DNA from: Cellulophaga baltica
GTDB taxonomy: Bacteria; Bacteroidota; Bacteroidia; Flavobacteriales; Flavobacteriaceae
Length of the DNA: 64,000 nucleotides
Assembly (NCBI RefSeq): GCF_018861125.1
Contig: NZ_JAHKQN010000024.1
Location: 25,177 to 89,176, forward strand
Direction: 5' to 3'
Both the position numbers and the translations under genes were made by a program. Below the pieces are notes generated by a model that was not told the origin of the DNA, made no database searches, and saw only the letters and a program-made list of their open reading frames with translations. Within the stretch, counting starts at the first letter, position 1, and each line of letters starts with the position of its first letter. This document shows, in pieces, positions 27,866 to 43,532 of the stretch.

Positions 27866-27901
27866 TCTGAATATTAATTTAATTAATTATAAATATTTTT
27901 T

Positions 27902-27917
27902 GCTTAATCGTTTAAGC
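27902..27917. promoter_or_regulatory. LacI-type operator O1 in the kdgK leader
   Basis: GCTTAATCGTTTAAGC, a near-perfect palindrome around a central CG, as is usual for LacI-family operators. It shares the first 14 bases with the second copy 79 bp away. It lies between the predicted kdgK start site and the kdgK ATG. Confidence 0.75.
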
Positions 27918-27973: not shown

Positions 27974-27981
27974 TATTTTTG
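27974..27981 (+). promoter_or_regulatory. Predicted minus-7 box of the lacI-family gene
   Basis: TATTTTTG, an exact TAnnTTTG match pointing right. Its last base is the first base of operator O2, giving a start near 27988 inside the operator and a leader of about 27 bases. Confidence 0.6.
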
Positions 27982-27996
27982 CTTAATCGTTTAAAC
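27981..27996. promoter_or_regulatory. LacI-type operator O2 at the divergent start sites
   Basis: GCTTAATCGTTTAAAC, the second copy of the CG-centred palindrome. It is flanked on both sides by minus-7 boxes that face inward, so one bound repressor would cover both predicted transcription starts. Confidence 0.75.
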
Positions 27997-28014: not shown

Positions 28015-29034
28015 GTGAAAAAAAAAAGAATAACGATAAAAGACATAGCAAATGTTTTAAGCATTTCACCAGCGGCAGTTTCTAAAGCCCTGAATGATGA
28101 TTCACGTATTAGTGCAAAGACTAAAGAAGCCGTAAAAAGAGTAGCCAAAGAGCTAAACTACCAACCGAACCACCTAGCCAGCGCCTTAAGAAGAGGGAAA
28201 AGTAATTTAGTTGGTGTTATTGTACCTAAAACTAATAGCAATTTTTTCTCTTCTGTTATTGAAAATATTGAAGCTGTACTTAATAAAGCTGGTTATAATA
28301 TTATAATTACCCAATCAAATGAATCTTTTGAAAAAGAATGTAAAAATATAGACACGCTTTTATATACTCAAGTAGATGGTATTATCGCTTCAATGGCCAA
28401 TGAAACTGTAGATTTATCTTTCTATGAAAAAATAAAGTCTAAAGGAATTCCTTTAATATTATTTGATAGAGGTGAAAATGATTTAAACGTAGATTATATT
28501 GGAATTAACGATTACGAAAGCAGTCATATGATTGTAAACCATTTGGTTGAAAGAGGATGCAAACGTATCGCACATATTGGAGGATTTAAACGAACTCGAA
28601 TTTTTAACAACAGAATTAAAGGTTATGTTGATGCTTTAAAAAAACATAATTTACCTTTAGATAACGAACTTTTGCTAGAGAGTAGCTTAACTACTGAAGA
28701 TGGCAGAAATAAAATGTTAGAATTGTTAGCACTTGAAAACAGACCAGATGCTGTATATATTGCTGGTGATTATGCCAGCTTAGGTGCACTTCAAGTTTTG
28801 AATGAAAAAAAAATTAAAATTCCTGAAGATATTGCTTTAGTAGGTTTTGGTAACGAACCTTTTACCGCTATGGTTACCCCTACTATTACTAGCGTAAAAC
28901 AACATAGTGAAGAAATAGGAAAACTTGCTGCGAAGAGTTTTTTAGATCATGTAGAAAAAACTACTGTAACTCAAAACTTAAATAAAATAATTTTAGATGC
29001 TGCTCTAATTATTAGAGATTCTTCTAAAAAATAA
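28015..29034 (+). CDS. LacI-family transcriptional regulator
   Basis: A 339-residue repressor-type regulator. The N-terminal helix-turn-helix is ITIKDIANVLSISPAAVSKALN, followed by the hinge helix HLASALRRGKSN that inserts at central CG steps of LacI operators. A periplasmic-binding-protein-like effector domain (about 62-339) follows. The start codon is GTG, directly giving MKKKRITIKDIA. It is divergent from kdgK-pfk, and two matching palindromes lie between them, so autoregulation and control of kdgK are likely (inference). The effector is probably KDG, KDPG or another sugar phosphate, which the sequence does not tell. Confidence 0.92.
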   Translation: MKKKRITIKDIANVLSISPAAVSKALNDDSRISAKTKEAVKRVAKELNYQPNHLASALRRGKSNLVGVIVPKTNSNFFSSVIENIEAVLNKAGYNIIITQSNESFEKECKNIDTLLYTQVDGIIASMANETVDLSFYEKIKSKGIPLILFDRGENDLNVDYIGINDYESSHMIVNHLVERGCKRIAHIGGFKRTRIFNNRIKGYVDALKKHNLPLDNELLLESSLTTEDGRNKMLELLALENRPDAVYIAGDYASLGALQVLNEKKIKIPEDIALVGFGNEPFTAMVTPTITSVKQHSEEIGKLAAKSFLDHVEKTTVTQNLNKIILDAALIIRDSSKK

Positions 29035-29090: not shown

Positions 29091-29852
29091 TTAGATACCT
29101 AAAGCTTGACCACCACCAATTTGGATAGTTTCTGCTGTAATAAATGCAGCATCTTTACTAGCTAAGAAAGAAACAACACCAGCAACATCTTCTGGCTGAC
29201 CTAATCTTCCTAACATAATATTGTTAGCCCAAGAAGCAAAAACTTCTGGTTTAGTAGATTTAATTTGTGCATGGAAAGGAGTATCAATAGTACCAGGAGA
29301 TACTGCGTTAACTCTAATGCTGTATTCAGCTAAATCTTTAGCTAAAGCTCTAGTAATTGCATGAACACCTGCTTTAGAAGTACCGTAAATTCCTGCACCA
29401 GGACCACCTGCAGTCCAACCTGCATTAGATGTATAGTTAATAATTGAAGGATGCTCTCCATTTTTCAAATAAGGGATTGCAGCTCTTGAAGCAAAGAATA
29501 CAGAATCTAAGTTTAAAGCCATAACAAATCTATAAAATTCAGTTGTCATTTCTTCAAATCTAGATCTACCACCTAAACCACCAGCATTATTTACAAGAAC
29601 ATCAATTCTACCGTATTTTTCACCAATTTTAGTGATATTTGACACTACCTCTTCTTCTTTAGTAACATCAAAACCGTAATATTCAGCAGTAATACCTTCT
29701 GCAGTCAATTCCTTAACTCTTTCTGCTCCTATTTCATCTTCAATACCATTTAAAATAACCGTATATCCGTCTTTTCCTAATCTTTTTGCTACTTCAAATC
29801 CTATACCTCCGGTTGCACCGGTAACAATAGCAACTTTTTTTTCTGAACTCAT
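29091..29852 (-). CDS. SDR-family reductase, probable DEH (4-deoxy-L-erythro-5-hexoseulose uronate) reductase
   Basis: A 253-residue classical SDR: TGATGGIG cofactor loop (about residues 12-19), NNAG (about 90-93), catalytic Ser in YTSNAG, YGTSK (about 155-159), and VNAVSPGTIDTPFH. It is the last gene of gntR-MFS-SDR. Related flavobacterial alginate loci carry an SDR in this place that reduces DEH (the spontaneous product of unsaturated uronate) to KDG with NAD(P)H. The assignment rests on family and context, as substrate residues are not diagnostic. The product KDG would be used by kdgK 1.2 kb away. Confidence 0.8.
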   Translation of the reverse strand: MSSEKKVAIVTGATGGIGFEVAKRLGKDGYTVILNGIEDEIGAERVKELTAEGITAEYYGFDVTKEEEVVSNITKIGEKYGRIDVLVNNAGGLGGRSRFEEMTTEFYRFVMALNLDSVFFASRAAIPYLKNGEHPSIINYTSNAGWTAGGPGAGIYGTSKAGVHAITRALAKDLAEYSIRVNAVSPGTIDTPFHAQIKSTKPEVFASWANNIMLGRLGQPEDVAGVVSFLASKDAAFITAETIQIGGGQALGI

Positions 29853-29887
29853 TTTTATTTATTTAGTGATTGTTATAATATTTTATT

Positions 29888-31195
29888 TTATTTGTTAGCT
29901 TTTAAAGGCTCAATTTTAGGACATAATACCCAAACAGCCACCAATGCTATTACAGCTAGTGTTCCTCCAATTAAAAATGCAGGAGTATAATTACCACCGG
30001 TTGTTATAAAAGTAACTAATGCAGTAAGTCCTGCCGCACCTAGTTTAGCAGCCATTCCAGCAAAACCCGATAAGGTACCAACTATTTTTCCACTGTATAA
30101 ATCACTTGGTAATGTTTGAATATTTCCAATTGCAACTTGAAATCCAAAAAGCAATACAGCCATAATAATTACTGCATTCATTGCCGTTCCAGGTGCTTTT
30201 AAAAGAAAGAAACAAGGAATCATCAATGCAATACCTAAAGTGATTGTCATCTTTCGTGTTTTATCTACAGACCAACCTGCTTTTATTCTATTTTTAGCAA
30301 GTAAACCACCAAATATCGCTCCAATCATAGCACCTACATAAGGTACCCATGCAGAAAATGCAATTTGTTTCACGTCCATACCAAAAACTTCAGACAAGTA
30401 AAGAGGAATCCAAACTATAAATAACCACCAAATAGGATCAATTGCCGCAGATGCAATAATTACTCCCCAGCTTTCTTTATGTTTAAATAATTGAGATGTA
30501 GTTGGCGTGTAACCTTCATCATAGTTACCATCTTTATCTATATCTTGATTTCTTTGACCTGAAAGAATATATTTTTTTTCATCATCTGATAGCCATGGGT
30601 GATTTTTTGGATCACCTTTAACTACAAATAACCAAGGAAGTAACCATAAAAAACCAAGTACAGCTACTACGATAAAAATTGCTTTCCAATCAAAATAATA
30701 TGATAATAATCCAATTACTGGATATGCCACTATACCACCTATAGCAGCCCCTGAATTAAAGATACCTTGAGCAAGAGCTCTTTCGTTAGTTGGAAACCAT
30801 TCCGCATTTGCTTTAGCTGCACCAGGCCAATTTCCTGCTTCAGCAATACCTAAAATAGATCTGAATATAGAAAATGATAACATACCTTGAGCAAAAGCAT
30901 GTAATAGTGTGGCAATAGACCATACTCCTATTGATAACGCAAAACCTATTCTAGTACCTATCCAATCGAAAATCTTACCAAAAAGAGCTTGACCTCCAGC
31001 ATAGGATAGTATAAAAATTGTTGATATTGTACCATAAATAGCTTTATGTCCGTCTTTATCCATCTCTGGAAATAATTCATTTGCAATATCAGGCCACAAA
31101 GCACCAAAAGCTTGTCTATCAATATAATTTACAATTGCAGCTAGAGCCACAAGACCTACAACCCACCATCGTAATCCTTTTACTTTCATATTCAA
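29888..31195 (-). CDS. MFS permease, ACS family (ExuT/hexuronate-like), probable DEH/uronate importer
   Basis: A 435-residue inner-membrane symporter with twelve hydrophobic segments. The N-terminal WWVVGLVALAAIVNYIDRQAFGALWPDI carries the family's NYIDR motif. GIAEAGNWPGAAKANAEWFP and ERALAQGIFNSGAAIGG are hallmark segments of the anion:cation symporter (ExuT/DgoT) group, which moves hexuronates and sugar acids with protons. It sits 12 bp after gntR and 35 bp before the DEH reductase. It therefore probably imports unsaturated alginate monomers or short products from the periplasm. Confidence 0.87.
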   Translation of the reverse strand: MNMKVKGLRWWVVGLVALAAIVNYIDRQAFGALWPDIANELFPEMDKDGHKAIYGTISTIFILSYAGGQALFGKIFDWIGTRIGFALSIGVWSIATLLHAFAQGMLSFSIFRSILGIAEAGNWPGAAKANAEWFPTNERALAQGIFNSGAAIGGIVAYPVIGLLSYYFDWKAIFIVVAVLGFLWLLPWLFVVKGDPKNHPWLSDDEKKYILSGQRNQDIDKDGNYDEGYTPTTSQLFKHKESWGVIIASAAIDPIWWLFIVWIPLYLSEVFGMDVKQIAFSAWVPYVGAMIGAIFGGLLAKNRIKAGWSVDKTRKMTITLGIALMIPCFFLLKAPGTAMNAVIIMAVLLFGFQVAIGNIQTLPSDLYSGKIVGTLSGFAGMAAKLGAAGLTALVTFITTGGNYTPAFLIGGTLAVIALVAVWVLCPKIEPLKANK

Positions 31196-31207
31196 TAAAT
31201 TAATTTA

Positions 31208-31915
31208 TTATTTATCAGAATGGTAGCAGTATTGATATAATGTACCAAAGTGAATTTTCATTTTTTCTTTTGCTAATTGAGGGTTTTGAGATTCAATTGC
31301 TTTGTAAATTTCTTCATGTTCTTTAATACCTCTTACAGATTGATTAGAGTCACAAACATGATATTTTTCAAAATTTGTAATAATTTCTGGTGTAATGATT
31401 AACATAAATGTATTCATTGTGCTATTACCACTTGCATTCGCAATTGCTAAATGAAAAAGCAAATCTTCTTGTACAGCATCTTCACCATTCTCAACTTTTT
31501 CAGCATAAGCTTCTAAAGCTTCACGTATTTTTTTTAAATCTTCATCTGTTCTTCTTAAAGAAGCCAACCTTACTGTTTTCAATTCAAGTAAAATTCTAGT
31601 TTCTACAAGTGATTTAAAATCTGGATCTTCTAAATTTAAGATGTCATTTAACATTCCATCCATTGCAACCGTTCCAATTTCTGCTATAAAAGTTCCACTT
31701 TGAGGTTTAGAAACTAAAATCCCGTAAAATTCTAATTTTCGAATAGCCTCTCTAATGTTACTTCTACTTACTCCAAACTTTTCTGAGAGCATTCGTTCTG
31801 AAGGCAATTTATCTCCTGGTTCTAAATTTTTAAAGCTGATTAACTCCTTAATATTCAAAATAATTTGATTTTGAATATCATTTTGATCTGATTTTGTAAC
31901 AATTTCTAATTTCAT
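31208..31915 (-). CDS. GntR-family regulator, FadR/UxuR-like
   Basis: A 235-residue one-component regulator. The winged helix is at about residues 18-85 (LEPGDKLPSERMLSEKFGVSRSNIREAIRKLEFYGIL). A C-terminal all-helical FCD domain (about 100-230) binds an organic acid effector, often through a metal. It is the first gene of the gntR-MFS-DEH reductase operon. Its own promoter and those of susC and the PL17 lyase carry TGGT-N2-ACCA units. These resemble the TGGTATACCA core recognised by UxuR/ExuR, the uronate regulators of enterobacteria. It is probably the repressor of the alginate genes, released by an uronate-derived acid (inference). Confidence 0.9.
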   Translation of the reverse strand: MKLEIVTKSDQNDIQNQIILNIKELISFKNLEPGDKLPSERMLSEKFGVSRSNIREAIRKLEFYGILVSKPQSGTFIAEIGTVAMDGMLNDILNLEDPDFKSLVETRILLELKTVRLASLRRTDEDLKKIREALEAYAEKVENGEDAVQEDLLFHLAIANASGNSTMNTFMLIITPEIITNFEKYHVCDSNQSVRGIKEHEEIYKAIESQNPQLAKEKMKIHFGTLYQYCYHSDK

Positions 31916-31938: not shown

Positions 31939-31961
31939 TGGTTAACCAGATTGGTTTCCCA
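31939..31961. promoter_or_regulatory. Tandem GntR operator at the gntR promoter
   Basis: Two units, TGGTTAACCA at 31939-31948 (perfect palindrome) and TGGTTTCCCA at 31952-31961 (imperfect), spaced exactly 13 bp. The second overlaps the last two bases of the minus-7 box, a position expected for autorepression. Confidence 0.75.
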
Positions 31962-31967
31962 AAACTA
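31960..31967 (-). promoter_or_regulatory. Predicted minus-7 box of gntR-MFS-SDR
   Basis: Read on the minus strand this is TAGTTTTG. A TTTG element lies 16 bases further upstream. The predicted start near 31953 falls inside the operator. Confidence 0.6.
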
Positions 31968-32102
31968 TAAAAAAAATTTTTAACAAAAAAAGATTATTTA
32001 ATTCAAAAAAAAATAAAAAATCTTGTTAAAATAACAATAAATGTATATAACTTATTCCCAAGAGTTTATGCCTAAAAATTAAATAAATATTTTATGCAAA
32101 TT

Positions 32103-33026
32103 TTAATGCGATACTTCTAATTCATAGATATTAACCTTTGAATAAGCACCCTTATCTCTTGATTGAAAGTAATTTCCTGCTTTAAAATAATTTTCAAAAA
32201 CACCCCATTTTTTAATATGGATACCTTCATAAACTTTATATTCGTTACCATTTAAAACGATAACCATCTTGCCGTCTGATATTTTCACTTCAAGAACAAA
32301 TTTTCTAAAATCAACTTTTTGCTCAAAATTGAAACCTTCATCATCATCCCAAGCATCATCATGCAACATTTCTTCGTAAGTTGCATTTAAATTTTTCAAA
32401 ACCTTAGTCTTTACTCTAATTTTACCTTTATCCCAATAAATTTTTAAAATTGGTGGCGCATTATTATCATCTTCACCAATTAAATCTCTTTGCTCATTGG
32501 TCAACCTACCATGAATTTGCATAATAATTGTTCTATGGTATTTTCCATTTGAATCTCTGCTTGTCTCTTCCATAGAAATTTTGCCTTTCATATATGCTCC
32601 ATCTGCAAAAGTCCAGTTCACGTTATTATTACCAGGAACCATTTGCTCTCTTAATTCTGAACGCGTATACTTTGTATTTGCCGTTTTAGAATCAGTTGGC
32701 ATTGAGTGAAACACTATAGAACCTTTCGTAGAATCTATATACATATAAGGTTTAGCAATCTCATTATTAGCAAAATCTAAAATTTCAGGCGGTTCAATAT
32801 TATAAGGTTTTCCCTTTTCATTAGTAACTGGAAGTGTAACTTTCCAATGACTTAAATCTATATTAGGTAATCTTACTTTTTTATTCCTTTTCTTCTTCTT
32901 CTTTTTCTTTTCAATTTTAACATCCGATTCTGCAACGCTACTCTCACTTACTTGTGAAGTAGCGGTTACAGAAAGAAATGCTATTATTAAAAAGCTTACT
33001 ATTTCATTTCGGAAATTCATCTGCAA
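32103..33026 (-). CDS. Alginate lyase, polysaccharide lyase family 7
   Basis: A secreted endo-type alginate lyase (307 residues) cutting by beta-elimination. After a signal peptide (about residues 3-25, ending TATSQ) comes an unusual Lys/Arg-rich linker (37-52, including seven consecutive Lys). The PL7 jelly-roll domain follows. All three PL7 signatures are present: RSELRE (122-127), QIH (170-172) with the catalytic His, and YFKAGNYFQ (280-288) with the catalytic Tyr. In PL7 the QIH form is generally linked to activity on G-containing blocks, so polyG or MG preference is expected (inference). It is the last gene of the susC operon. No lipobox is seen, so it is probably periplasmic or secreted. 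Confidence 0.92.
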   Translation of the reverse strand: MQMNFRNEIVSFLIIAFLSVTATSQVSESSVAESDVKIEKKKKKKKRNKKVRLPNIDLSHWKVTLPVTNEKGKPYNIEPPEILDFANNEIAKPYMYIDSTKGSIVFHSMPTDSKTANTKYTRSELREQMVPGNNNVNWTFADGAYMKGKISMEETSRDSNGKYHRTIIMQIHGRLTNEQRDLIGEDDNNAPPILKIYWDKGKIRVKTKVLKNLNATYEEMLHDDAWDDDEGFNFEQKVDFRKFVLEVKISDGKMVIVLNGNEYKVYEGIHIKKWGVFENYFKAGNYFQSRDKGAYSKVNIYELEVSH

Positions 33027-33073
33027 TTCAATTTTATAATTCTTTTAATTCTAATACAACTAGTGTGCTAAAT

Positions 33074-34549
33074 TTAAAAACCAGGAGTAATAATATCAAT
33101 ATTATCTATAAATACATCTGTACTACTATCAACAGCACCTAAAGCTCTTACATATATTACAGCTATATCTGACGAAGCTGTAAATTGAAATGTTGTTGTT
33201 GTGAAATTATCAACACTTGAACTACTTTTATCCGGATTAAAATCATTTGTAATATTAACATAAGCGTCTGCAAAATCATCTATTCCAACCTCAGTCGTGA
33301 TTTCTGTATTTAAAATCCAAACCTCTGTATTAATACCTTCTGCTTCAGAACGAGTTTGTATAGTAAATGTATATTCAACACCAGGCTCTACAGCTACAAC
33401 CTGATAAAGTCTGCGACATGGATCATCAAATTTTAAACCTCTAGTTTTTACTCCATCTACAAAGTTACCATCACTTGTTGACCCTGGCTGTTCATCTGTG
33501 CAGTAAGTAGCATCTATATAATCATTTAAGTCAGTATTTCTCCAAATTGCTCTATACGGACTATCTATTGTAGCTCCTGAATTATCAACAACAGTACTAT
33601 TAGGTGTCATATCCCAAGCATCAGCATTATCTCCAGTTTCAGTAGTATATTCATCACCTGTCCCATTTAGAACAACAGCAGCAAAAGTAGCCTCAACTCC
33701 TCCTACAGGAACTGCTTTAGTAACACTTTTTGAAACTCCCGCTTCATTCTCTGTAGTTAAAGTAACATCATAAGTTCCGTCAGCTGCAAAAATGTGTATA
33801 GGGTTCATTTCTGTTGATGTATTACCATCGCCAAAATCCCAACTATAAGATACTGCTAAAATTGATTCATCTGTAAATTCAGCAGTTAAAGAAGATGTTG
33901 TAAAAGAAAAATCTGGTACTGTAGACAACACTAAACCTTCAATATTTTTAGACAATGAAACTTCTTCTCCTAAAAAATTAGTTATTGTTAATGTAGCCAC
34001 AAATACATCTTCACTTGAATAAATATGAGTAGGACTAAAATTAGCATCTTCTTCAGTGTCTTCAACTGAATTCCAACTAACAACTTCTCCATCTCCAAAA
34101 TCCCACTCTAATTCACTAGCACCAGAACTTAAATTTTCAAAAGAAACTTCTGAATCAACTATAGAAAAATCAAAATCTATAAACACAGGTGAAACATCAG
34201 ATGAATCTACTGCTGTTAAACCATCAGAACTAGTTGTTGTTAATTTAACGGTATACAAACCTCCTGTACTATAAGTATAGTCAGGGTTAGCTTCTGTTGA
34301 TGTATTACCATCACCAAAATCCCAATTATAAGAAACAGCGTCAGTTGAGTAACTTCTAAACACCAATGCTAAATCATCTTCAGCACTAGAACTTACAGTA
34401 AAAAGTGTATTGGGTTCTATGTTGTTTACATTCCCTGTTGGTGGTTCAAATTCTTCATAACCTGTATCAAAACAAGACACTAAAGTAAATGTGAACAGAA
34501 ATAACAAAGCAATACTACCTTGATATTTATTTATTAATTTATAATTCAT
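33074..34549 (-). CDS. PKD-repeat lipoprotein with C-terminal carbohydrate-binding-like domain
   Basis: A 491-residue predicted surface glycan-binding lipoprotein in the SusE/F position of the alginate operon. Lipobox LVSC (C26) is followed by an acidic Glu-rich anchor. Three PKD modules follow, each with the W-D-F-G-D-G core: YNWDFGDGNTS, LEWDFGDGEVV and YSWDFGDGNTS. The C-terminal 200 residues form a jelly-roll-like module with paired cysteines (DATYCTDEQ, DDPCRRLYQ), probably the alginate-binding part (inference). PKD 1 and PKD 3 share a 42-bp nearly identical DNA segment, pointing to internal duplication. It lies between the coiled-coil PKD lipoprotein and PL7. Confidence 0.82.
   Translation of the reverse strand: MNYKLINKYQGSIALLFLFTFTLVSCFDTGYEEFEPPTGNVNNIEPNTLFTVSSSAEDDLALVFRSYSTDAVSYNWDFGDGNTSTEANPDYTYSTGGLYTVKLTTTSSDGLTAVDSSDVSPVFIDFDFSIVDSEVSFENLSSGASELEWDFGDGEVVSWNSVEDTEEDANFSPTHIYSSEDVFVATLTITNFLGEEVSLSKNIEGLVLSTVPDFSFTTSSLTAEFTDESILAVSYSWDFGDGNTSTEMNPIHIFAADGTYDVTLTTENEAGVSKSVTKAVPVGGVEATFAAVVLNGTGDEYTTETGDNADAWDMTPNSTVVDNSGATIDSPYRAIWRNTDLNDYIDATYCTDEQPGSTSDGNFVDGVKTRGLKFDDPCRRLYQVVAVEPGVEYTFTIQTRSEAEGINTEVWILNTEITTEVGIDDFADAYVNITNDFNPDKSSSSVDNFTTTTFQFTASSDIAVIYVRALGAVDSSTDVFIDNIDIITPGF
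33809..33850 (-). repeat. Intragenic direct repeat, copy A (PKD module 3)
   Basis: 42 bp matching 34292-34333 at 40 of 42 positions. It encodes the WDFGDGNTSTE segment of the third PKD module, which implies recent duplication or gene conversion between modules. Confidence 0.8.
34292..34333 (-). repeat. Intragenic direct repeat, copy B (PKD module 1)
   Basis: The partner of 33809-33850, encoding the same segment of the first PKD module. The intervening second PKD module is clearly different at this place. Confidence 0.8.
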
Positions 34550-34572
34550 AATATTAAATTTTAATGTATAAC

Positions 34573-35778
34573 TTATTGTTTTACTATTATATCAAAAGCA
34601 TCTAACCTAACTTCATCTCCAGCAACAGTTCCATAAATTATAACAGATTCATTCTCCCCTGCTTCAAATGTAATTGCATGTTTTTGAAAAACATTTTCAG
34701 TTCTTCCTACACTCGTATCTGTTCTAGTTGCAAGAATATTTTCTTCTAATTTAGATTCTGCATAAGTTGAAGTATTAGGGTTTAAAATAGAAACTGTTAC
34801 TTCACCAAAATCTGTATCCAAAGAAAAAGCTGAAAAATAAGTTAGCACATATGTTACGCCTTGGGAAACCTCTATCTCTTGATAAATAACTCTATCCCCT
34901 GAAGCTGGTAATTTAGCAGCCTGTACTCCTTCTGGCAAAGCCGCTAAATCACTTTCATTAGTAGGTGCATTAATCTGAATAACAGTTGTACCCCCTGTAG
35001 TTGGACTCCAATCTGCATTACTAGGAACTCTCCAAGAATCTCTTCCATCCCCTGAACCATCAAATAAGGTTCCAACTTCAAATCCTGGCTCTCCAATTTC
35101 AGGAACTGGAATTGTTGGCACAGCTTGATTAACCGTAATAATTTGTTCTGTTGAAGCTGATTTACCTAAGTTATCAGTTACTGTTAAACCAACAGTATAA
35201 GTACCGGGTTCAGGGAATGAGAAAATTATTTCTCTATCATTTAAAGTACCTGCCTCTAATTCTTGAATTTGAGTTTCTAATGCAGCTACATTTGCTAATG
35301 TTTCGTCAGAAAGTGATGCTTCAGCATCTAATAAAGATTCTTCTAGCGCAGCTAATTCAGCTTCCATTACATCAATTACATCTTGATCAGTTTCACAAGG
35401 CAACTTAAATTCTATAGCAGCAATATCCTCTTCTAGGGCGACAACTTCTGCTAATTCAGCATCAATTAAAAGTTCAAGAATTGGCAAGTCTTTATTAATC
35501 AAAGAAACACCTTCAGAAGGTTCTATGCTCCATTCGTAATTAGTACCGTTTACGGCTAAATTTGAACCTGCTAAAAAATTAAAATCATAATTAGCAGCTA
35601 ATTCAACGTCATTACAATCAAATTCTGAAGTCGTAACATCAGTTACAGAATAAAAAGGTGTTGGACCTGTAATATCTTCCAGATCACCTACATCAGCTAA
35701 ATCATCACTGACACAAGAAGTTAGAGATACAAATGCACCTAAAACCATGTATTTTAATGTATATAAATATTTTTTCAT
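34573..35778 (-). CDS. PKD-like lipoprotein with inserted coiled-coil hairpin
   Basis: A 401-residue predicted outer-membrane lipoprotein (lipobox SLTSC, C22), second in the SusE/F position. A PKD-like fold starts at about residue 53 (FDCNDVELAANYDFNF) and is resumed at 182-217 (REIIFSFPEPGTYTVGLTVTDN). Between them lies an 80-residue insertion (about 98-178) made of Leu/Ala/Glu heptads, EVVALEEDIAAIE and ELAALEESLLDAE, that looks like an antiparallel coiled coil. The C-terminal 180 residues form a beta-sandwich with a CBM-like pattern. It lies 12 bp after susD. It probably binds alginate at the surface, with the coil acting as spacer or docking arm (inference). Confidence 0.8.
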   Translation of the reverse strand: MKKYLYTLKYMVLGAFVSLTSCVSDDLADVGDLEDITGPTPFYSVTDVTTSEFDCNDVELAANYDFNFLAGSNLAVNGTNYEWSIEPSEGVSLINKDLPILELLIDAELAEVVALEEDIAAIEFKLPCETDQDVIDVMEAELAALEESLLDAEASLSDETLANVAALETQIQELEAGTLNDREIIFSFPEPGTYTVGLTVTDNLGKSASTEQIITVNQAVPTIPVPEIGEPGFEVGTLFDGSGDGRDSWRVPSNADWSPTTGGTTVIQINAPTNESDLAALPEGVQAAKLPASGDRVIYQEIEVSQGVTYVLTYFSAFSLDTDFGEVTVSILNPNTSTYAESKLEENILATRTDTSVGRTENVFQKHAITFEAGENESVIIYGTVAGDEVRLDAFDIIVKQ

Positions 35779-35790
35779 AATTATAATTTT

Positions 35791-37365
35791 TTAATATCCA
35801 CTATTTTGAATGTAGAAACCTGGTAAATTGTCAATCTCGGTCTGTGGAAAAGGAAGGTACTTCTTTTCACTAGTGTAAAACAAACTGTTTGCATTTGAAA
35901 ATGCTGTTAAAACATTATCAGCTTCACCAAATCTTATTAGATCATATAAACGTTGATTTTCATATACAAACTCAACTCTTCTTTCTTCTAATAACTCATC
36001 TTTAGTTAAGTTCACAACTTCTTCAAGACCTGCTCTTTGCCTAACAAGGTTAAAAGCATCAATAGCTCTAGAATCTGTTGTACTATTTCCACCTGCTAAA
36101 ATAGCTTCAGCATAAAGCAACAAAACATCTGCATACCTTAAAACAATCCAATCATTATCACCAATTTCACCATCTGTTGGAAATTTAGCATTAAAAGTAT
36201 CGTTTGTTTCATCTGTAGGATCATATGATAATGCATCAATACTTGCGTAGAAACGTACTGGTTGTAATTCAGGGTTCATAACTTCTAAAAAGTCAAGTGT
36301 TGCTATATTTACACCATTAGAAGGACCTTGTAATGTCATAGCAAAACTATGAGACTCAGAGTCTGTTTCAACTTGATCATCTAAACCACTATCACTAGTA
36401 ACATAATTATCACTACTAACTAAATCGTAAGCAATTGAAAATATAACTTCGTCATTAATCTCTAAAGCATCATTATTAGACCATGTACCTTCTAAAACTC
36501 CATCAGAATATCCGTCTGAAATACTATTACCAAATACTTCACCATAATCTATAACCAAATTAGCATTGTACTCATCATCAGTAATAACATCAGGATCTAG
36601 ATCAAAGTTCTCTGCATTTGCTCTTTCTGTATAGATAAGACTATAGCCATATGAAGAACTATTTTCTACAACTGATGCTAGTAAAAGTTCAGCCTCAGTA
36701 TAATCAGGATTAGGTTGACTTAAATAAGCCTTAGCTGCAAAAGTAATAGCTGCCCCTTCTGAAGGTCTGTATCTATTTTGTTCAACACCATTTAAATAAG
36801 CAATTGAAGTTTTGAAATCATCAATAATCTTTTCGTAAACTTCAGCTTCAGGTAATTGAGGATAATCTAAGGCTTCTTCAGTATTAACATCTAAAACTTT
36901 GTCAATAAAAGGAACATTTTGATATGCTCTCACAAGGTTAAAGTGACATAAAGCCCTCATAAAATAAGCTTCACCAACTACGTACTGCTGATCTTCAGGA
37001 ACTAAAAAACGACTATCAATAATTGTATTTGCATGTTTAATAGTTGACATATTATTAGAGTAATATGAAGACACATCTCCATTATTAGCATCAACATTAT
37101 ATGCATTTATCGCTGGGAAGTTTCCGTTTTCAGAATTTGCTCTAACATTGTCAGACCTTAACTCTGTTAACAAAAATTCATTAGCTGGTATTTTTTGATA
37201 CGCATCTAAAACACCGTTTGCCAAAAATTCAAAACCGTCATCTGTTTGAAGTAACTCTTCATTTGAAAGTGCTGTTGGGTTACTTAAATCTAGTTCTTCC
37301 TCACAACTGGTTAATAAAGTCGCAAATGAAAAACAAACTATTATATTTTTATATATCTTTTTCAT
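35791..37365 (-). CDS. SusD/RagB-family alginate-oligosaccharide-binding lipoprotein
   Basis: A 524-residue SusD homologue, the surface lid of a SusC transporter. Lipobox LLTSC is followed by EEELDL. An N-terminal SusD-like segment (EELLQTDDGFEFLANGVLDAYQ) and TPR-type helices (VGEAYFMRALCHFNLVRAYQNVPFI) are present. The C-terminal SusD signature is RYADVLLLYAEA, followed by LLEERRVEFVYENQRLYDLIRFG. It starts 6 bp after susC, the invariable arrangement. Genes downstream encode PKD lipoproteins and PL7, so alginate oligomers are the expected ligand. Confidence 0.95.
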   Translation of the reverse strand: MKKIYKNIIVCFSFATLLTSCEEELDLSNPTALSNEELLQTDDGFEFLANGVLDAYQKIPANEFLLTELRSDNVRANSENGNFPAINAYNVDANNGDVSSYYSNNMSTIKHANTIIDSRFLVPEDQQYVVGEAYFMRALCHFNLVRAYQNVPFIDKVLDVNTEEALDYPQLPEAEVYEKIIDDFKTSIAYLNGVEQNRYRPSEGAAITFAAKAYLSQPNPDYTEAELLLASVVENSSSYGYSLIYTERANAENFDLDPDVITDDEYNANLVIDYGEVFGNSISDGYSDGVLEGTWSNNDALEINDEVIFSIAYDLVSSDNYVTSDSGLDDQVETDSESHSFAMTLQGPSNGVNIATLDFLEVMNPELQPVRFYASIDALSYDPTDETNDTFNAKFPTDGEIGDNDWIVLRYADVLLLYAEAILAGGNSTTDSRAIDAFNLVRQRAGLEEVVNLTKDELLEERRVEFVYENQRLYDLIRFGEADNVLTAFSNANSLFYTSEKKYLPFPQTEIDNLPGFYIQNSGY

Positions 37366-37371
37366 AACTAA

Positions 37372-40300
37372 TTAAAATTGGAAGTTAATACCTGCTGAAA
37401 TTGTTCTAACTACTGGTCCATCACCTCTTTGGTAACCAGCCGTTAATGGCGTATTGGCATTGTTAGATGTTTGTCCAGCTGCCTCAGGATTAAAACCTTC
37501 ATAACCTTTAGCTGTAAAGAATAATAGGTTTTCACCTGTTATATAAAATCTAAGTTTATCAAACTTATTTTTTTCTGTAAATTTCTTTGGAAAAGAAAAA
37601 CCTAAGGTTACATTTCTTAAAGCTACAAATGAAGCATCTTGAATGTGATCGTCTGTAAATCTTCTATGAACTGTTAAATCAGCATCAGGGAAATTAGCAA
37701 CTTCATTTACCGCAGATTCGCTAGCATAATACAATTGATCTAAATCTGCCACTCTAACTTCTGCTCCATGAGAACCTTGCCATTGCAATGAGAAATCAAA
37801 ATCATTATATGTAAAATCAGAATTGAAACCCCAAGTAAAATCAGGATAAGGACTACCTAACTCAGTTCTATCTTCATCGTCAATAACACCATCGTTATTT
37901 AAATCTTTTACATAAACATCTGCAAAATCATTATTAAATCTATTAAACGGATTATCTACCCACTCTAAAGGAATTTCTCTATCATAAACCCATCCATAAA
38001 ATGATGTAATTGGTTGTCCAACCTTAGCAATAAATTCTGTTGGTCTTGTATCTTGGTCAATACTAGAAATAATTTGATCATTATTACCTAAGTTTTTAAC
38101 AATGTTTCTATTTAAAGCAAAATTACCACCAGCAATCCAGCTAAAATTCTCATTTGATAATACTCTAGCATTTAACTCTAATTCTACACCCTCGTTTTTA
38201 ACCTCACCTATATTCTGTAACCAGTTATCAGTACCATAAGTTGCTGCAACGGGAGCAAAAAGAATTAAATCTTTACTGGTTCTTGTATAATAATCAGCTG
38301 AAAAATTAATTAAACCTCTACCAAAAGTTACATCAACTCCAGGGTTAAATTCTATTAAACTTTCCCAACCTAAATTTTCATTAGCTAAAGTTGTAGCTTT
38401 TACACCTGTTTGGTTGTTATAACCAATTGTACTAAATGTTTCTTCAAACCTGTACAATGATTCGTAAACGTCGTTTGAAATTTGATTTGAACCAGAAACA
38501 CCATAACTAGCTCTAACTTTTAAAAAGGTTACAAAATCACTTGAAGATAAGAAATCCTCATTTGACATTACCCAACCTGCAGAAGCTGCCGGGAAAAATC
38601 CAAATCTAGAATTTTGACCAAATCTTGTACTTCCATCAGTACGAGCAGACACTTGTAATAAATATTTTTCATCGTAGTTATAATCTACTCTACCAAAATA
38701 AGACACCAACTTATCAGTTCCGTTATCTGTATATGTAGTACCACCATCTGCAAGTGCTATATTATTATTAAAATCATTCGTAAAACCAACAGCTTCAGAT
38801 TCTTGCCTGTAAAAATCTCTTTGTGTAAATTCAAAACCAAGTACTGAGTTTAAATTATGCTTACCCAAACTAGTATTGTATTTTAATATAGATTCAATAG
38901 CATATTGGTTTAACTCATCTCTTCTTTCTAAACGGTAAGATTCTTGTTCTCTATTTTCTTGACCCAACAAGAAGTCAGCCTCTGTAGTTGTTGTTGTTCT
39001 GAATACTCCAGAAATACCTTGTCTGAAATTAAGACCTTTTGCTAATTTTACATCAAAATAAGAAGATGCATTTAAACTTAGTTTTTTCTTTAATCTAGAT
39101 CTTTCTAAATAATGTACTAATGGGTGTACATTTTTAGTAGTAGATAACGTTAAACCTCCTGAAGTTAAATCACTTACTAATGGCAAACCTGTATTTGGAT
39201 CTCTTGCGATTGATCTTGAGTCAGTATCAGACACTGTAAATACATGATCAAATGCTCTTGAAAAACCATAACTACCAACACCTATATTCTCAAATTGAGA
39301 ACCTGCATCACCTGGATCAGATTGTGTAATATAATCTAAATGATCTTCATTTAAATACAATGGAATATGACCATATTGTCTTAATGGATCTGTAAATCTA
39401 GTCGGAACTCTCACTTGGTCATTATAATTTGCACGAATATTGGCACCAAATTTAATTTTACCATTTTTTGATTTACTATCAACTTTAACCCTTGCATTAT
39501 ACTTTTTAAAATTATCTGTAAGCACAACACCTTCATCATCAAGATATCCTAAGGATGCAGTATAACTAGTTAACTCTGTACCACCTCTTACTGATAAAGA
39601 GTGACTACTAATTACACCTCCATTAAAAATTTCATCTTGCCAGTTAGTCCAACCACCACCTAATGAAGCGATAAAATCCATTGCCTCAAGCTCAGCATAA
39701 GCAGTATTGTAATCTCCATTAATTCTATCATAATTTTCACTGTCAACTGAAATTGCACTAACAACATCTTGTAAGCCATCTAACCTAGAACGTTCTTGAC
39801 TAATATTAGTATTAAAGTTGGTATTCTTATTAGTATACTTATACCCTGTAAAAGTATTGTATGAAAATCTTGTTTTACCTGCAACACCTTTTTTAAGTGT
39901 TACCAATATTACACCATTTGCTCCACGTGAACCATAAATTGCTACTGACGAAGCATCTTTTAAAACACTTATTGAAGCAATATTATTATTATCAATAGAA
40001 CCAAGTATATCAGAATCTGTACCTAAAACAACACCATCAACAACTATTAATGGAGAAGAAGAACCTGTAATTGAACCAGGACCTCTTAATGTAATTTTTG
40101 GATCACCACCAGCTTCTGAAGCTACTGTTTGTATTCTTAAACCAGCAACCTTACCTCTAAGCGCATCTTCTACACGAGAAACAGCTACGTTTTCAATATC
40201 GTCACTAGATACTTTAGTTAAAGCACTTGTTACATTTTTCTTTTTCTGATCACCATAAGCAACTACTACAATTTCATCTAGCTCTGCTAAGTCTTCGGCC

Positions 40301-40584
40301 ATTGAAACATTTATAGTTTTTTCTGCTCCCACAATTACTGATTGAGCTTTGTACCCAATGTAAGAGAATTGTAAAACATCATCTTTTTTGACAGTAATTT
40401 TGTAAATACCATCAAAATCTGTAGATGTACCTTTTGTTGTTCCCGCGATAACAACATTTGCACCCGGAATTGGAACGTTGTTCTCATCTGAAACAACACC
40501 AGAAACCTGGTAACTGTCTTGCGCATAAAGCGAGATGTTAAGCAACGTAATTGCAATTAATAAAAGTTTTGATTTTAATTTCAT
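37372..40584 (-). CDS. SusC/RagA-family TonB-dependent transporter, alginate type
   Basis: A 1070-residue outer-membrane importer of oligosaccharides powered by TonB. A signal peptide (ending LYAQ) is followed by a carboxypeptidase-regulatory-like domain (about 25-105, VSGVVSDENNVPIPGANVVIAGT). The plug comes next (about 115-225, with LRGKVAGLRIQT and ASSVAIYGSRGANGVILVTLKKG), then a 22-stranded barrel ending in INFQF, a typical final Phe. It is the first gene of susC-susD-PKD-PKD-PL7. The leader is about 300 bases, and three operator units lie at its promoter. The GSRGANG motif is diagnostic of the SusC family. Confidence 0.95.
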   Translation of the reverse strand: MKLKSKLLLIAITLLNISLYAQDSYQVSGVVSDENNVPIPGANVVIAGTTKGTSTDFDGIYKITVKKDDVLQFSYIGYKAQSVIVGAEKTINVSMAEDLAELDEIVVVAYGDQKKKNVTSALTKVSSDDIENVAVSRVEDALRGKVAGLRIQTVASEAGGDPKITLRGPGSITGSSSPLIVVDGVVLGTDSDILGSIDNNNIASISVLKDASSVAIYGSRGANGVILVTLKKGVAGKTRFSYNTFTGYKYTNKNTNFNTNISQERSRLDGLQDVVSAISVDSENYDRINGDYNTAYAELEAMDFIASLGGGWTNWQDEIFNGGVISSHSLSVRGGTELTSYTASLGYLDDEGVVLTDNFKKYNARVKVDSKSKNGKIKFGANIRANYNDQVRVPTRFTDPLRQYGHIPLYLNEDHLDYITQSDPGDAGSQFENIGVGSYGFSRAFDHVFTVSDTDSRSIARDPNTGLPLVSDLTSGGLTLSTTKNVHPLVHYLERSRLKKKLSLNASSYFDVKLAKGLNFRQGISGVFRTTTTTEADFLLGQENREQESYRLERRDELNQYAIESILKYNTSLGKHNLNSVLGFEFTQRDFYRQESEAVGFTNDFNNNIALADGGTTYTDNGTDKLVSYFGRVDYNYDEKYLLQVSARTDGSTRFGQNSRFGFFPAASAGWVMSNEDFLSSSDFVTFLKVRASYGVSGSNQISNDVYESLYRFEETFSTIGYNNQTGVKATTLANENLGWESLIEFNPGVDVTFGRGLINFSADYYTRTSKDLILFAPVAATYGTDNWLQNIGEVKNEGVELELNARVLSNENFSWIAGGNFALNRNIVKNLGNNDQIISSIDQDTRPTEFIAKVGQPITSFYGWVYDREIPLEWVDNPFNRFNNDFADVYVKDLNNDGVIDDEDRTELGSPYPDFTWGFNSDFTYNDFDFSLQWQGSHGAEVRVADLDQLYYASESAVNEVANFPDADLTVHRRFTDDHIQDASFVALRNVTLGFSFPKKFTEKNKFDKLRFYITGENLLFFTAKGYEGFNPEAAGQTSNNANTPLTAGYQRGDGPVVRTISAGINFQF

Positions 40585-40806
40585 TTGTTGAGTTTGTTAC
40601 GTTAAAATTAATAAGCGTGTTTTATAGGCAGATAAAAACCTATATAAATAATTCATCCCTTTACAACAAAAAATAAGCCTGAGTTACTAACTTAAATTCT
40701 GATATTTTCTAAAAAAAGAAAAACAATAAAGTAAAAAGGATAAGGTTTAAAATTCACTCAAAAAGCAAGCTTCATTTAAAAAATTTGAATGGAAAAATCT
40801 TTTTTA

Positions 40807-40828
40807 CAAAATGACAAGCGTCATTTTG
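40807..40828. promoter_or_regulatory. Hairpin in the susC leader
   Basis: A perfect 9-bp stem (CAAAATGAC / GTCATTTTG) with a 4-base loop. On the plus strand it is followed by an interrupted T-run, so it resembles a terminator for antisense transcription. On the minus strand it lies about 75-95 bases into the predicted susC mRNA. Confidence 0.55.
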
Positions 40829-40874
40829 TTTTGTTTTTTTGCCTGAGTTTTTATCATATCAATTGAGTTTTTTT

Positions 40875-40910
40875 TGGTTATCCAAACTGGTCTACCAATT
40901 TGGATAACCA
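40875..40910. promoter_or_regulatory. Triple GntR operator at the susC promoter
   Basis: Units TGGTTATCCA (40875-40884), TGGTCTACCA (40888-40897) and TGGATAACCA (40901-40910), each 13 bp apart. The outer two are exact reverse complements, making the whole 36-bp block a palindrome. The last unit overlaps the minus-7 box by two bases. Confidence 0.85.
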
Positions 40911-40916
40911 AATATA
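40909..40916 (-). promoter_or_regulatory. Predicted minus-7 box of susC operon
   Basis: Read on the minus strand this is TATATTTG, an exact TAnnTTTG match. The predicted start near 40902 lies inside the operator block, so bound repressor would block initiation. Confidence 0.65.
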
Positions 40917-41090
40917 TGTTATTAGTATGTTAAATAAAAATGCAATTATAAATTTTAACAGAAGAAAATAGGATTAAAATAAAATTAAGGTGCTTAAAAT
41001 AAGAAATTACTATCAGCGATTGTTATAAAACATAATACAACACACCGATTGAATAAAAAATACAACTGATAGTTTATGAGAAATTAAAAA

Positions 41091-41127
41091 AATCCACTTT
41101 TGAGTTTATTATTCTCAAAAGTGGATT
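41091..41127 (-). terminator. Terminator of the PL17 gene
   Basis: A perfect 14-bp stem (AATCCACTTTTGAG / CTCAAAAGTGGATT) with a 9-base loop, followed on the minus strand by a T-run, 8 bp after the PL17 stop codon. Confidence 0.88.
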
Positions 41128-41135
41128 AATAAAAT

Positions 41136-43388
41136 TTAATTAAATTTCGCAAAAGGTCCTACCCATTTGTAGTCCTTGCCTAAAATTGATAAGTTATGGT
41201 TAGTGTTTAATGAATTGTCTTTATTAGAAACAACAAATACTAAAGTAGAATTATCATTATTTACTATTTTAATGGCAGTATAATTTTCTGTGTCAACCAA
41301 AAGACTAATTGTTTTAATTGCACTATAAGCGTTTACCGCCGATTCAGATACAGGGCTATACGAACCATGTGACTCTGTTACTGAAACAAATGTTGCATTT
41401 TGAGCATTCTTTTTTCTTATAATAAAACCAGGGTCTTTTCTTAAATTGAACTCTGGATCGTTTGCTCCAATTCTTGCAAACAAAAGCTCATCTCCTTCTG
41501 ATGTAATACTTGTGTTGGTGTAAAATTTATTATTTGACAACCAATTTAATGTCACGTTTTCTCCTTTAGAAATTCCTTTTGCTTCTAAATACAAATGCTG
41601 ATATCCATTTTTATCACTCAATGGTTTAAGTGTATTAAATGCTTCATACTCAAAATTAGTTTTCATTATTTGACCCAAATAATAAAACGGCAAATCATAT
41701 TGATGTGTGCTATCAGATAACACTCTAACTATATCTAAAACAATTGGCTTTATATATGCCTCATATTTAATAACTGCCATTGTTCTATGCATTTCCGTAC
41801 CTGGATATGCATTAATTTCTTTTGCACTAGCAACTTGAAGGTCTTCATTTTTAATATCAAAAATATATTTTTCAGGGTAATACTGACTTCCAATATCATA
41901 TGTGCCTTTAAAATGAGAAGTTTCATCTTGAATAATTGTATTATGAGCAATTGTTTGTTTAGCCCAGGTCTTATTTTCTTTTAAATAATTACCACCTCCT
42001 TTTTGCTCTATATTTACAAAACGTGCAAGTCCGTAATCTTGTGCAACTTCATCACCATCTTCATATAAAGAATATGATAATTTGTCATAATGCCCATGAC
42101 TTGAACCTTGTGAAGCATATTTAAAAACAAGTTCAATATCATCACTTCTAATAATACCTACTCCACCTTGTTTACCATCTGACCCATCAGATAGATTAAT
42201 TGATTTTTTATCAAAAGGTTTCGCTTTTCCATTTTTCACACCTAAAGCAACCGCTAAACCAGAATCATCCAACAAAACTTTTCCTTGTTGCTCAGCTATT
42301 GAAAGTAATCCTGGGTTATTTCCTCCAAAATGATATGAAATATCCACAGCAGTAACTAACGCACTATTGTAATAAGACATTCCTTTTTGACCATCATTAA
42401 GTGGAAAGAAATCTCCATCTGCATCAGATAAATTCAATAATGCATTTATAGATTTTATAAGTACTCCTTCTTTATATTCAAAAATCTTTAATTCTGGTTT
42501 TACATTATGAAGTCCTTCTGCAAAAATTAAAAAAGGATACATTGCGTAACGTTGATAATATGGACCTTCATTATAATAGCCATCAGGTGAAAACGGTTCT
42601 TCAATATTTGCTAAAAAACCAGCTTTACCATCTTTATTTAAAAAACCACCATCATCATCTTTTGCTGATTTATCTAAACTAACACCCTTAATACCATATA
42701 AAGCACGATCAATTAATTCTTGATCATCCATTACTAAACCAATCATACCAACTGCCGCATTACCCCATGTACTGTGATTGTGAACTCTTTGATAAAATTG
42801 CGGGCTATCAACCGAAATATGATCAGCAAAAGGTCTAAATAAATTATTCTCTAATTTTTTTCGCTCCTTTTTTGATAAATAATCATAAATACAATCATAG
42901 GCTTGACTCACATAAACCAACCAGTTAGAATCATTTAGACATTGCCAAAATAACTTACCTCTAGCATAAGATCTTGTTTTTGGATGCAATGGTAATGTTT
43001 TGTACATCATCTCATATTCCATCAACATATCTTTTACATATTTGGCATACTTTTCATCTTCAAGTATTTGGTATAATACACCTGCTTTTTGTAAAACGAT
43101 AAAATTACGTTTATGCCTATCATGTGTATAACCTCCTGAATAATCTTTAGGAATCGGAACCTCAATTCCTGAAGCAATCTCTGCATCAATTTCTTTTTTA
43201 ATTTCTTCTAAAGAAGCATCAAAAAGTGGAATATTACCTAATTGTTCTCTAATATTCTTAACACCCTCCTTAGTTAAAATTAATTTAGGATGGTCTTGCG
43301 CACTACTCATTAAAGAGATAAGAAATATGCATGTTAAAAGTAGCACCTGAAAACATTTATTTTTCTGCTGTTTAGTTTTTAAATTCAT
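41136..43388 (-). CDS. Oligoalginate lyase, polysaccharide lyase family 17
   Basis: A 750-residue exo-type alginate lyase releasing unsaturated monomer that becomes DEH. A signal peptide (about 14-30, ending SSAQ) is followed by an (alpha/alpha) toroid domain. That domain carries HNHSTWG (203-209) and DGYYNEGPYYQRY (269-281), which match the Asn/His and Tyr catalytic regions of PL17. The C-terminal heparinase II/III-like beta domain begins near residue 395 and includes SQGSSHGHYDKLSYSLYEDG, probably with a metal-binding His. It is transcribed alone from a GntR-operator promoter and ends at a strong terminator. Works after PL7, probably in the periplasm. Confidence 0.93.
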   Translation of the reverse strand: MNLKTKQQKNKCFQVLLLTCIFLISLMSSAQDHPKLILTKEGVKNIREQLGNIPLFDASLEEIKKEIDAEIASGIEVPIPKDYSGGYTHDRHKRNFIVLQKAGVLYQILEDEKYAKYVKDMLMEYEMMYKTLPLHPKTRSYARGKLFWQCLNDSNWLVYVSQAYDCIYDYLSKKERKKLENNLFRPFADHISVDSPQFYQRVHNHSTWGNAAVGMIGLVMDDQELIDRALYGIKGVSLDKSAKDDDGGFLNKDGKAGFLANIEEPFSPDGYYNEGPYYQRYAMYPFLIFAEGLHNVKPELKIFEYKEGVLIKSINALLNLSDADGDFFPLNDGQKGMSYYNSALVTAVDISYHFGGNNPGLLSIAEQQGKVLLDDSGLAVALGVKNGKAKPFDKKSINLSDGSDGKQGGVGIIRSDDIELVFKYASQGSSHGHYDKLSYSLYEDGDEVAQDYGLARFVNIEQKGGGNYLKENKTWAKQTIAHNTIIQDETSHFKGTYDIGSQYYPEKYIFDIKNEDLQVASAKEINAYPGTEMHRTMAVIKYEAYIKPIVLDIVRVLSDSTHQYDLPFYYLGQIMKTNFEYEAFNTLKPLSDKNGYQHLYLEAKGISKGENVTLNWLSNNKFYTNTSITSEGDELLFARIGANDPEFNLRKDPGFIIRKKNAQNATFVSVTESHGSYSPVSESAVNAYSAIKTISLLVDTENYTAIKIVNNDNSTLVFVVSNKDNSLNTNHNLSILGKDYKWVGPFAKFN

Positions 43389-43480
43389 TGTTAGTAAGGA
43401 TAATGTTGAGTTACACCCATTTGGTTTAAATAAATATTATTAATGTTAAAAGTCGAATTTTACTTTAAACACCAACTAAC

Positions 43481-43503
43481 TGGTTTACCAAATTGGTTCA
43501 CCA
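43481..43503. promoter_or_regulatory. Tandem GntR operator at the PL17 promoter
   Basis: Two units, TGGTTTACCA (43481-43490) and TGGTTCACCA (43494-43503), again 13 bp apart. The second overlaps the last two bases of the minus-7 box, the same geometry as at susC and gntR. Confidence 0.82.
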
Positions 43504-43532
43504 AATATATACATATTTATTTAGTACGCAAA
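43502..43532 (-). promoter_or_regulatory. Predicted promoter of the PL17 gene
   Basis: Read on the minus strand: TTTG (43529-43532), 19 bases, then TATATTTG (43502-43509). This is the best full match in the window to the Bacteroidota promoter TTTG-N19-TAnnTTTG. The predicted start is near 43495, with a leader of about 107 bases. Confidence 0.72.

Follow-up and report, generated by a model that had tools for sequence, protein, structure and literature searches.

Tandem candidate operators at a fixed 13-bp pitch in an alginate regulon of Cellulophaga baltica and a 13/15-bp pitch switch between regulator clades

Introduction

AusR, a GntR-family regulator that represses alginate genes in Zobellia galactanivorans, is reported to bind operators in single, double or triple copies (PMC7874173, PMC8286568, both citing Dudek 2020), and this repression is reported to be released by alginate breakdown intermediates (PMC7874173, PMC8286568, PMC8073546, citing Dudek 2020). 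Here we analyzed a stretch of 64,000 nucleotides (the window) from the 3.92-Mb genome of the flavobacterium Cellulophaga baltica (Flavobacteriaceae; G000), in which a 10-bp unit, TGGTNNACCA, is repeated at a 13-bp pitch at three promoters of an alginate polysaccharide utilization locus (PUL) that carries its own gntR gene. On synteny, domains and function, the encoded GntR is very probably the orthologue of AusR. Our literature search found no report of a fixed pitch or of a 13/15-bp switch; Dudek 2020 may mention spacing. Because the regulator is very probably the AusR orthologue, and AusR is already reported with multiple operators, the regulon is of a known kind and in itself extends it by one genus; as far as our search shows, what is new is that the pitch is fixed across the family and switches between 13 and 15 bp.

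UxuR and ExuR, which belong to the FadR subfamily as the window GntR does, bind TGGTATACCA-like sites. Between GT and AC, UxuR sites have a gap of 2 nt and ExuR sites one of 3 nt, and FadR-subfamily sites, with the consensus TKGT..ACMA, often have an extra half-site 7–12 nt from the centre, as stated in PMC4494728. The Suvorova survey of GntR motifs includes no Bacteroidetes FadR-type member (PMC4494728), no operator is described in the available parts of the literature on Vibrio and Bacteroides alginate GntR proteins, and we found no fixed-pitch arrays described for UxuR or ExuR. For the repressor NanR of Escherichia coli, three dimers are reported to pack cooperatively on (GGTATA)3, where repeat spacing matters and dimers assemble on all three repeats although these lie less than half a turn apart (PMC8012715). 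A sequence-only reading of the window had regarded side-by-side cooperative binding as unusual, but NanR (PMC8012715) and the multiple operators of AusR (PMC7874173) provide precedents, and the NanR dimers indicate that dense packing is feasible because they assemble on repeats so closely set.

The locus shares with that of AusR a GntR protein with a winged helix and FCD domain, encoded in an alginate PUL with SusC/D, PL7, PL17 and PKD-type genes and with genes for a major facilitator superfamily (MFS) transporter and a short-chain dehydrogenase/reductase (SDR). Both systems have single, double or triple operators. The differences are the genus and, shown here, the rigid pitch across the family, the register with the -7 box and a sister clade with a 15-bp pitch.

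Tandem Arrays at Three Alginate Promoters

The PUL runs on the minus strand in the order PL17, SusC, SusD, two PKD-type proteins, PL7, and then gntR, MFS and SDR. Beyond gntR-MFS-SDR (29091-31915) lies kdgK, divergent from a lacI gene.

29091..29852, minus strand: SDR, probable 4-deoxy-L-erythro-5-hexoseulose uronate (DEH) reductase, gntR operon
29888..31195, minus strand: MFS transporter, gntR operon
31208..31915, minus strand: gntR, FCD/FadR-type GntR regulator, very probable AusR orthologue (Pfam GntR and FCD; 79 homologous loci; AlphaFold model matching FCD regulators)
32103..33026, minus strand: PL7 alginate lyase (Pfam Alginate_lyase2)
35791..37365, minus strand: SusD
37372..40584, minus strand: SusC, TonB-dependent receptor
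41136..43388, minus strand: PL17 oligoalginate lyase (Pfam, NCBIfam)

As the sequence-only reading had described, two, three and two units stand at the gntR, susC and PL17 promoters, respectively, with all successive starts 13 bp apart, and at each of the three the promoter-proximal unit lies exactly on the end of a TAnnTTTG box, the last two bases of the minus-strand box being the first two of the unit. A minor qualification concerns three of the seven units, each of which differs from TGGTNNACCA at one position. The gap between GT and AC is 2 nt, like that of UxuR and unlike that of ExuR. The candidate operator units listed below carry no strand.

31939..31948: gntR candidate operator, distal unit TGGTTAACCA, 0 mismatches
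31952..31961: gntR candidate operator, promoter-proximal unit TGGTTTCCCA, 1 mismatch
31960..31967, minus strand: gntR -7 box TAGTTTTG, overlapping the proximal unit by its last two bases
40875..40884: susC candidate operator, distal unit TGGTTATCCA, 1 mismatch
40888..40897: susC candidate operator, middle unit TGGTCTACCA, 0 mismatches
40901..40910: susC candidate operator, promoter-proximal unit TGGATAACCA, 1 mismatch
40909..40916, minus strand: susC -7 box TATATTTG, overlapping the proximal unit
43481..43490: PL17 candidate operator, distal unit TGGTTTACCA, 0 mismatches
43494..43503: PL17 candidate operator, promoter-proximal unit TGGTTCACCA, 0 mismatches
43502..43509, minus strand: PL17 -7 box TATATTTG, overlapping the proximal unit

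Six perfect TGGTNNACCA sites were observed in the window versus 0.82 expected; the two outside the arrays (21209 and 57180) are single and lie inside open reading frames. Allowing a total of one mismatch per pair, we counted four pairs spaced by exactly 13 bp, versus none in each of 30 simulated windows with the same dinucleotide make-up. A set of 79 fetched GntR loci (1.51 Mb in total, related to one another) gave 140 near-perfect site pairs at 13 bp, 48 at 26 bp and 4 at 39 bp, with only 3 others within 60 bp, and rearranged control patterns gave no 13-bp pair in the same loci. The site excess, the simulated windows and the control patterns together rule out a chance origin of the arrays.

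Conservation in Related Loci and Distribution of Targets

The sequence-only reading had proposed a search of related loci, and in this computational half of its refutation test both motif and pitch proved to be conserved; the pitch is thus genuinely constrained. Among 73 susC arrays, the window included, 55 have three units, 15 have two and 3 have four, and the overlap of the proximal unit with TAnnTTTG is exact in all 73 promoters. The spacers between units are mostly RWY, so that the real palindrome is YTGGTNNACCAR, with one base between neighbours. Target promoters in related loci carry from one to four units, graded by promoter: most gntR promoters have about 1.5, lyase genes 2 and susC 3–4. 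One perfect unit was found in 54 of the 79 gntR promoters, and in most gntR promoters the preceding unit has decayed to forms such as TAACAAACCA, with its ACCA half-site still in the 13-bp register. This full unit with an ACCA half-site ∼10 nt from its centre resembles the boxes with an extra half-site in PMC4494728; those, however, are single weak half-sites, whereas full palindromes are repeated in register here.

The outer susC units of the window are reverse complements of each other, as would be expected if they paired in the 5' leader as a transcribed RNA hairpin instead of serving as a DNA operator. Across the 55 three-unit arrays, however, the complementarity of the outer units was 8.04 of 10 versus 7.92 for shuffled sets, with 49 of 500 shuffles as high, and loops of two bases cannot close within a unit. 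The outer units thus do not covary, and we rejected the hairpin, whose probability we regard as negligible.

Throughout the C. baltica genome, 13-bp arrays with no more than one mismatch were confined to genes for alginate lyases and to PULs that encode a GntR paralogue. Besides those at the three promoters of the window, unlinked arrays are at a PL6 gene (contig C10) and a CBM6-PL7 gene (C36); a second CBM6-PL7 gene on C36 has an array with two mismatches. A second PUL, on C5, encodes PL6, PL7 and a GntR paralogue of 58% identity and has arrays at its susC and PL7 promoters, and on C26 a three-unit array stands at a susC gene adjoining a paralogue of 52% identity.

Two features of these paralogous loci were observed separately. 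At the C26 locus (L095; 1734-2471, 7292-7327), the third GntR paralogue is accompanied by a 13-bp array of three units that precedes a SusC/D pair, with no recognised lyase nearby. At the C5 locus (L093; 3003, 7911-7933, 13174-13196), the arrays favour GT/AC centres (TGGTGTACCA, TGGTACACCA). This sets them apart from most units at loci of the window type and hints that paralogues with the same 13-bp pitch may be told apart by the centre of the unit.

The susC promoters and leaders have further conserved elements. Upstream of the -7 box (window ∼40917-40945, minus strand), conservation is strong in a T-rich stretch and in the TTAAC and ATAAC, ∼11 bp apart, that come after it; these may be either an extended promoter or a second-factor site. 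A two-hairpin RNA element (AAAAAAGGAYAGGTGCACGCCTATCCTTTT, then TTACTTCTTTGGAGGGAAGTAA) is present in 64 of 73 alginate susC 5' leaders (L060 ∼1088-1147, L079 ∼3187-3246, L019 ∼1116-1177 and 61 further susC leaders); the window copy is degenerate or lost (∼40790-40850, minus strand). In 60 genomes, strong matches occurred in GntR-positive genomes only, one or two in each. No Rfam family reached the gathering level in four related loci that include the susC leader, and matches at the window susC promoter were at chance level only. A possible role of the element is that of an attenuator or a protein-binding leader.

Co-occurrence of Regulator and Arrays

We examined 120 Flavobacteriaceae genomes, one per genus, and counted as GntR-positive those with a match at an E value of 1e-60 or better. 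Arrays at 13 bp with at most one mismatch were present in 28 of 28 GntR-positive genera (27 perfect, 1 with a single mismatch) and in 0 of 92 GntR-negative genera (Fisher p ∼6e-28); four GntR-negative genomes have close pairs, at 12, 17, 18 and 24 bp. The idea that an alginate regulon is read by the local GntR, put forward from the sequence alone, is supported by this tracking of regulator and array. These results demonstrated that the arrays constitute a regulon and not chance, and paired units at 13 bp mark AusR-type regulons in genomes with high specificity, which helps to find unlinked alginate-lyase genes.

A Pitch Switch between Two Regulator Clades

Among 95 loci of window-type regulators (clade A), 149 of 150 close pairs were at 13 bp and none at 12 or 14 bp. 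In a sister clade (clade B), whose regulators are mostly 43–52% identical to the window GntR and come from other Bacteroidia families, 27 pairs of the same unit were found, 21 at 15 bp, 3 at 14 bp, 3 at 16 bp and none at 13 bp. Clade B genes often adjoin susC, PL7, PL17 or kdgK, and their 15- and 16-bp arrays away from gntR stand before susC, PL6, PL7, PKD-protein and PfkB/SDR genes. The clade B loci keep TGGTNNACCA, the spacer going from 3 to mostly 5 nt.

This spacer change bears on another possible reading unit, either ACCA-N3-TGGT or a composite of 23 bp, to which a different kind of dimer or a tetramer would bind in place of one dimer on each TGGTNNACCA. A two-unit array is indeed also palindromic about its spacer, and extra half-sites 7–12 nt from the centre are frequent in the FadR subfamily (PMC4494728), with one kept at the gntR promoter. 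However, the outer half-sites of the arrays are conserved, clade B retains TGGTNNACCA while the spacer changes, and the subfamily consensus given there is TKGT..ACMA (PMC4494728); we regard a composite unit as quite improbable.

A branch with 100/99 support separates the 13-bp group from the 14–16-bp group in a phylogeny of 63 proteins, so that one switch suffices. Rooting on the distant L143, a long branch, makes 13 bp the derived state. Four genomes (G521, G590, G624, G638) carry both clades; in these, 13- or 26-bp pairs share a contig with the window-type gene, and the clade B gene has 15-bp pairs next to it. The pitch thus goes with the regulator and not with the genome, and seems to be determined by the protein. 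The offset of the -7 box seen in clade A is also the commonest in clade B. Because this register is the same in both clades and the pitch is not, we rejected the promoter or RNA polymerase as what sets the pitch. Promoter type was rejected as well, as gntR and susC promoters follow the pitch of their own clade, the susC promoters of clades A and B differing as their regulators do.

The same data weigh on the alternative that the units are independent operators without dimer contact, extra copies merely raising occupancy and the 13-bp pitch being inherited from a copied ancestral cassette. Single-unit promoters, as in the 54 gntR cases, and the alike RWY spacers would fit this. However, 1-bp indels in A/T spacers would be expected to be common under drift, and 12- and 14-bp pairs are absent from the 150 in clade A; the arrays stand at non-homologous promoters and under three paralogues; the decayed first unit of gntR promoters holds its half-site in register; and the pitch moves with the regulator clade. 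We therefore consider independent operators unlikely.

The GntR Protein

The window GntR matched Pfam GntR (66 bits) and FCD (90 bits). The sequence-only reading had compared the units with those of UxuR/ExuR; the 2-nt gap is indeed UxuR-like, but the protein is neither, scoring 64.6 of 442 and 58.6 of 396 bits against the two NCBIfam models. It is under every NCBIfam equivalog cut-off listed, the nearest being LldR and NanR (the latter at 111 of 260 bits), with PdhR also nearer than UxuR/ExuR. Its predicted structure (predicted local distance difference test score 81.5, predicted template modeling score 0.58) matches FCD regulators including NanR and DhdR-DNA. D151, H155, H200 and H222 are invariant in the alignment, which we take to be consistent with the FCD metal site.

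The clades share the recognition-helix arginines, and their differences cluster in residues 1-16, at K29-N30 versus G29, in the wing (69, 76) and in the C-terminal helix (223-231). Lysine-29 and Asn-30, after helix 1, were rejected as the sole determinant of pitch: L098, the first branch among the 13-bp proteins, lacks them and has a 13-bp triple array, so they are not needed for 13 bp. E32, S39 and S44, together with the C-terminal set, occur in L098 and most 13-bp proteins and in few or none of the others.

Like NanR, the window GntR is an FCD-type GntR protein with a repeated operator. The NanR dimers lie side by side, which for the present protein is suggested by the rigid pitch. The operators differ, NanR binding direct GGTATA repeats in an asymmetric pose and the units here being full TGGTNNACCA palindromes at 13 bp. 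NanR cooperativity also depends on a 32-residue N-terminal extension, which the window GntR lacks: its GntR domain match starts at residue 15 and its modelled first helix at residue 8, with only ∼14 residues before the winged-helix match.

Proposed Mechanism

Taken together, the arrays are probably operators of the local AusR-type repressor, occupied by side-by-side dimers in a packing specific to each clade. Each unit would be a palindrome, YTGGTNNACCAR, bound by one dimer. The first unit would cover the last bases of the -7 box, with the others placed across the presumed transcription start and immediately beyond it; the proposed row of dimers would thereby block RNA polymerase until an alginate breakdown product released them. 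Neighbouring dimers in clade A would sit at exactly 13 bp, that is, on 12-bp palindromes with 1 bp between and rotated by ∼86 degrees; those of clade B would sit at 15 bp (14–16). Given that the two clades have unit and promoter register in common, the pitch probably reflects the dimer packing of each, and in the strict 13-bp clade this packing is most likely by direct dimer contact. The number of units would grade control, from gntR through the lyases to susC.

Several points weigh against this interpretation. Support for this genome comes from sequence, and AusR orthology is based on synteny, domains and function. The cooperativity arm of NanR is absent from the protein that would make the proposed contact. 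The clades also differ in the central dinucleotide, AA/TA in A versus CA/TA in B, and thus the pitch is not their sole difference. Finally, because the 79 loci are related, their pair counts are not independent, and one vote per genus (28 of 28) is the fairer figure.

We propose, more tentatively and with rather less than even confidence, that the recognition code of this GntR family includes the pitch as an evolvable component: near-identical recognition helices would read the same 10-bp unit but pack at 13 bp (rigidly) or at 15 bp (14–16), pitch and central dinucleotide would separate two alginate regulons in cells with both regulators, and the single switch would coincide with changes to the N-terminus, to the beginning of the winged helix and to the C-terminal helix. 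If true, such a pitch code would be a bacterial counterpart of the nuclear-receptor spacing rule. The system is a natural experiment in operator geometry, in which a single family with the same unit and promoter register shows two pitches, with a single switch in the tree and with genomes that hold both. It makes testable which surface of FCD-type GntR proteins sets dimer packing along DNA and whether spacing can insulate paralogues.

The kdgK Branch and a Neighbouring Regulator Gene

The kdgK promoter had been read as lacking the TGGTNNACCA units, and indeed none was found in the kdgK/lacI intergenic region. This region instead contains two copies of a LacI-type operator, TGCTTAATCGTTTAARC, 79 bp apart, and the kdgK branch appears to be a separate regulon under the LacI-type regulator.

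27901..27917, no strand: candidate LacI-type operator TGCTTAATCGTTTAAGC
27980..27996, no strand: candidate LacI-type operator TGCTTAATCGTTTAAAC
28015..29034, plus strand: LacI-type regulator of the adjoining kdgK branch, putative separate regulon

Paired TTAAnCGnTTAA sites 78–91 bp apart lie between kdgK and lacI in 12 of 12 related loci with lacI, as well as in the window, suggesting DNA looping.

A gene for a Crp/Fnr-like regulator (43694-44326) is divergent from PL17 and shares its intergenic region; Crp regulators are noted as specific to Cellulophaga alginate clusters in PMC7874173.

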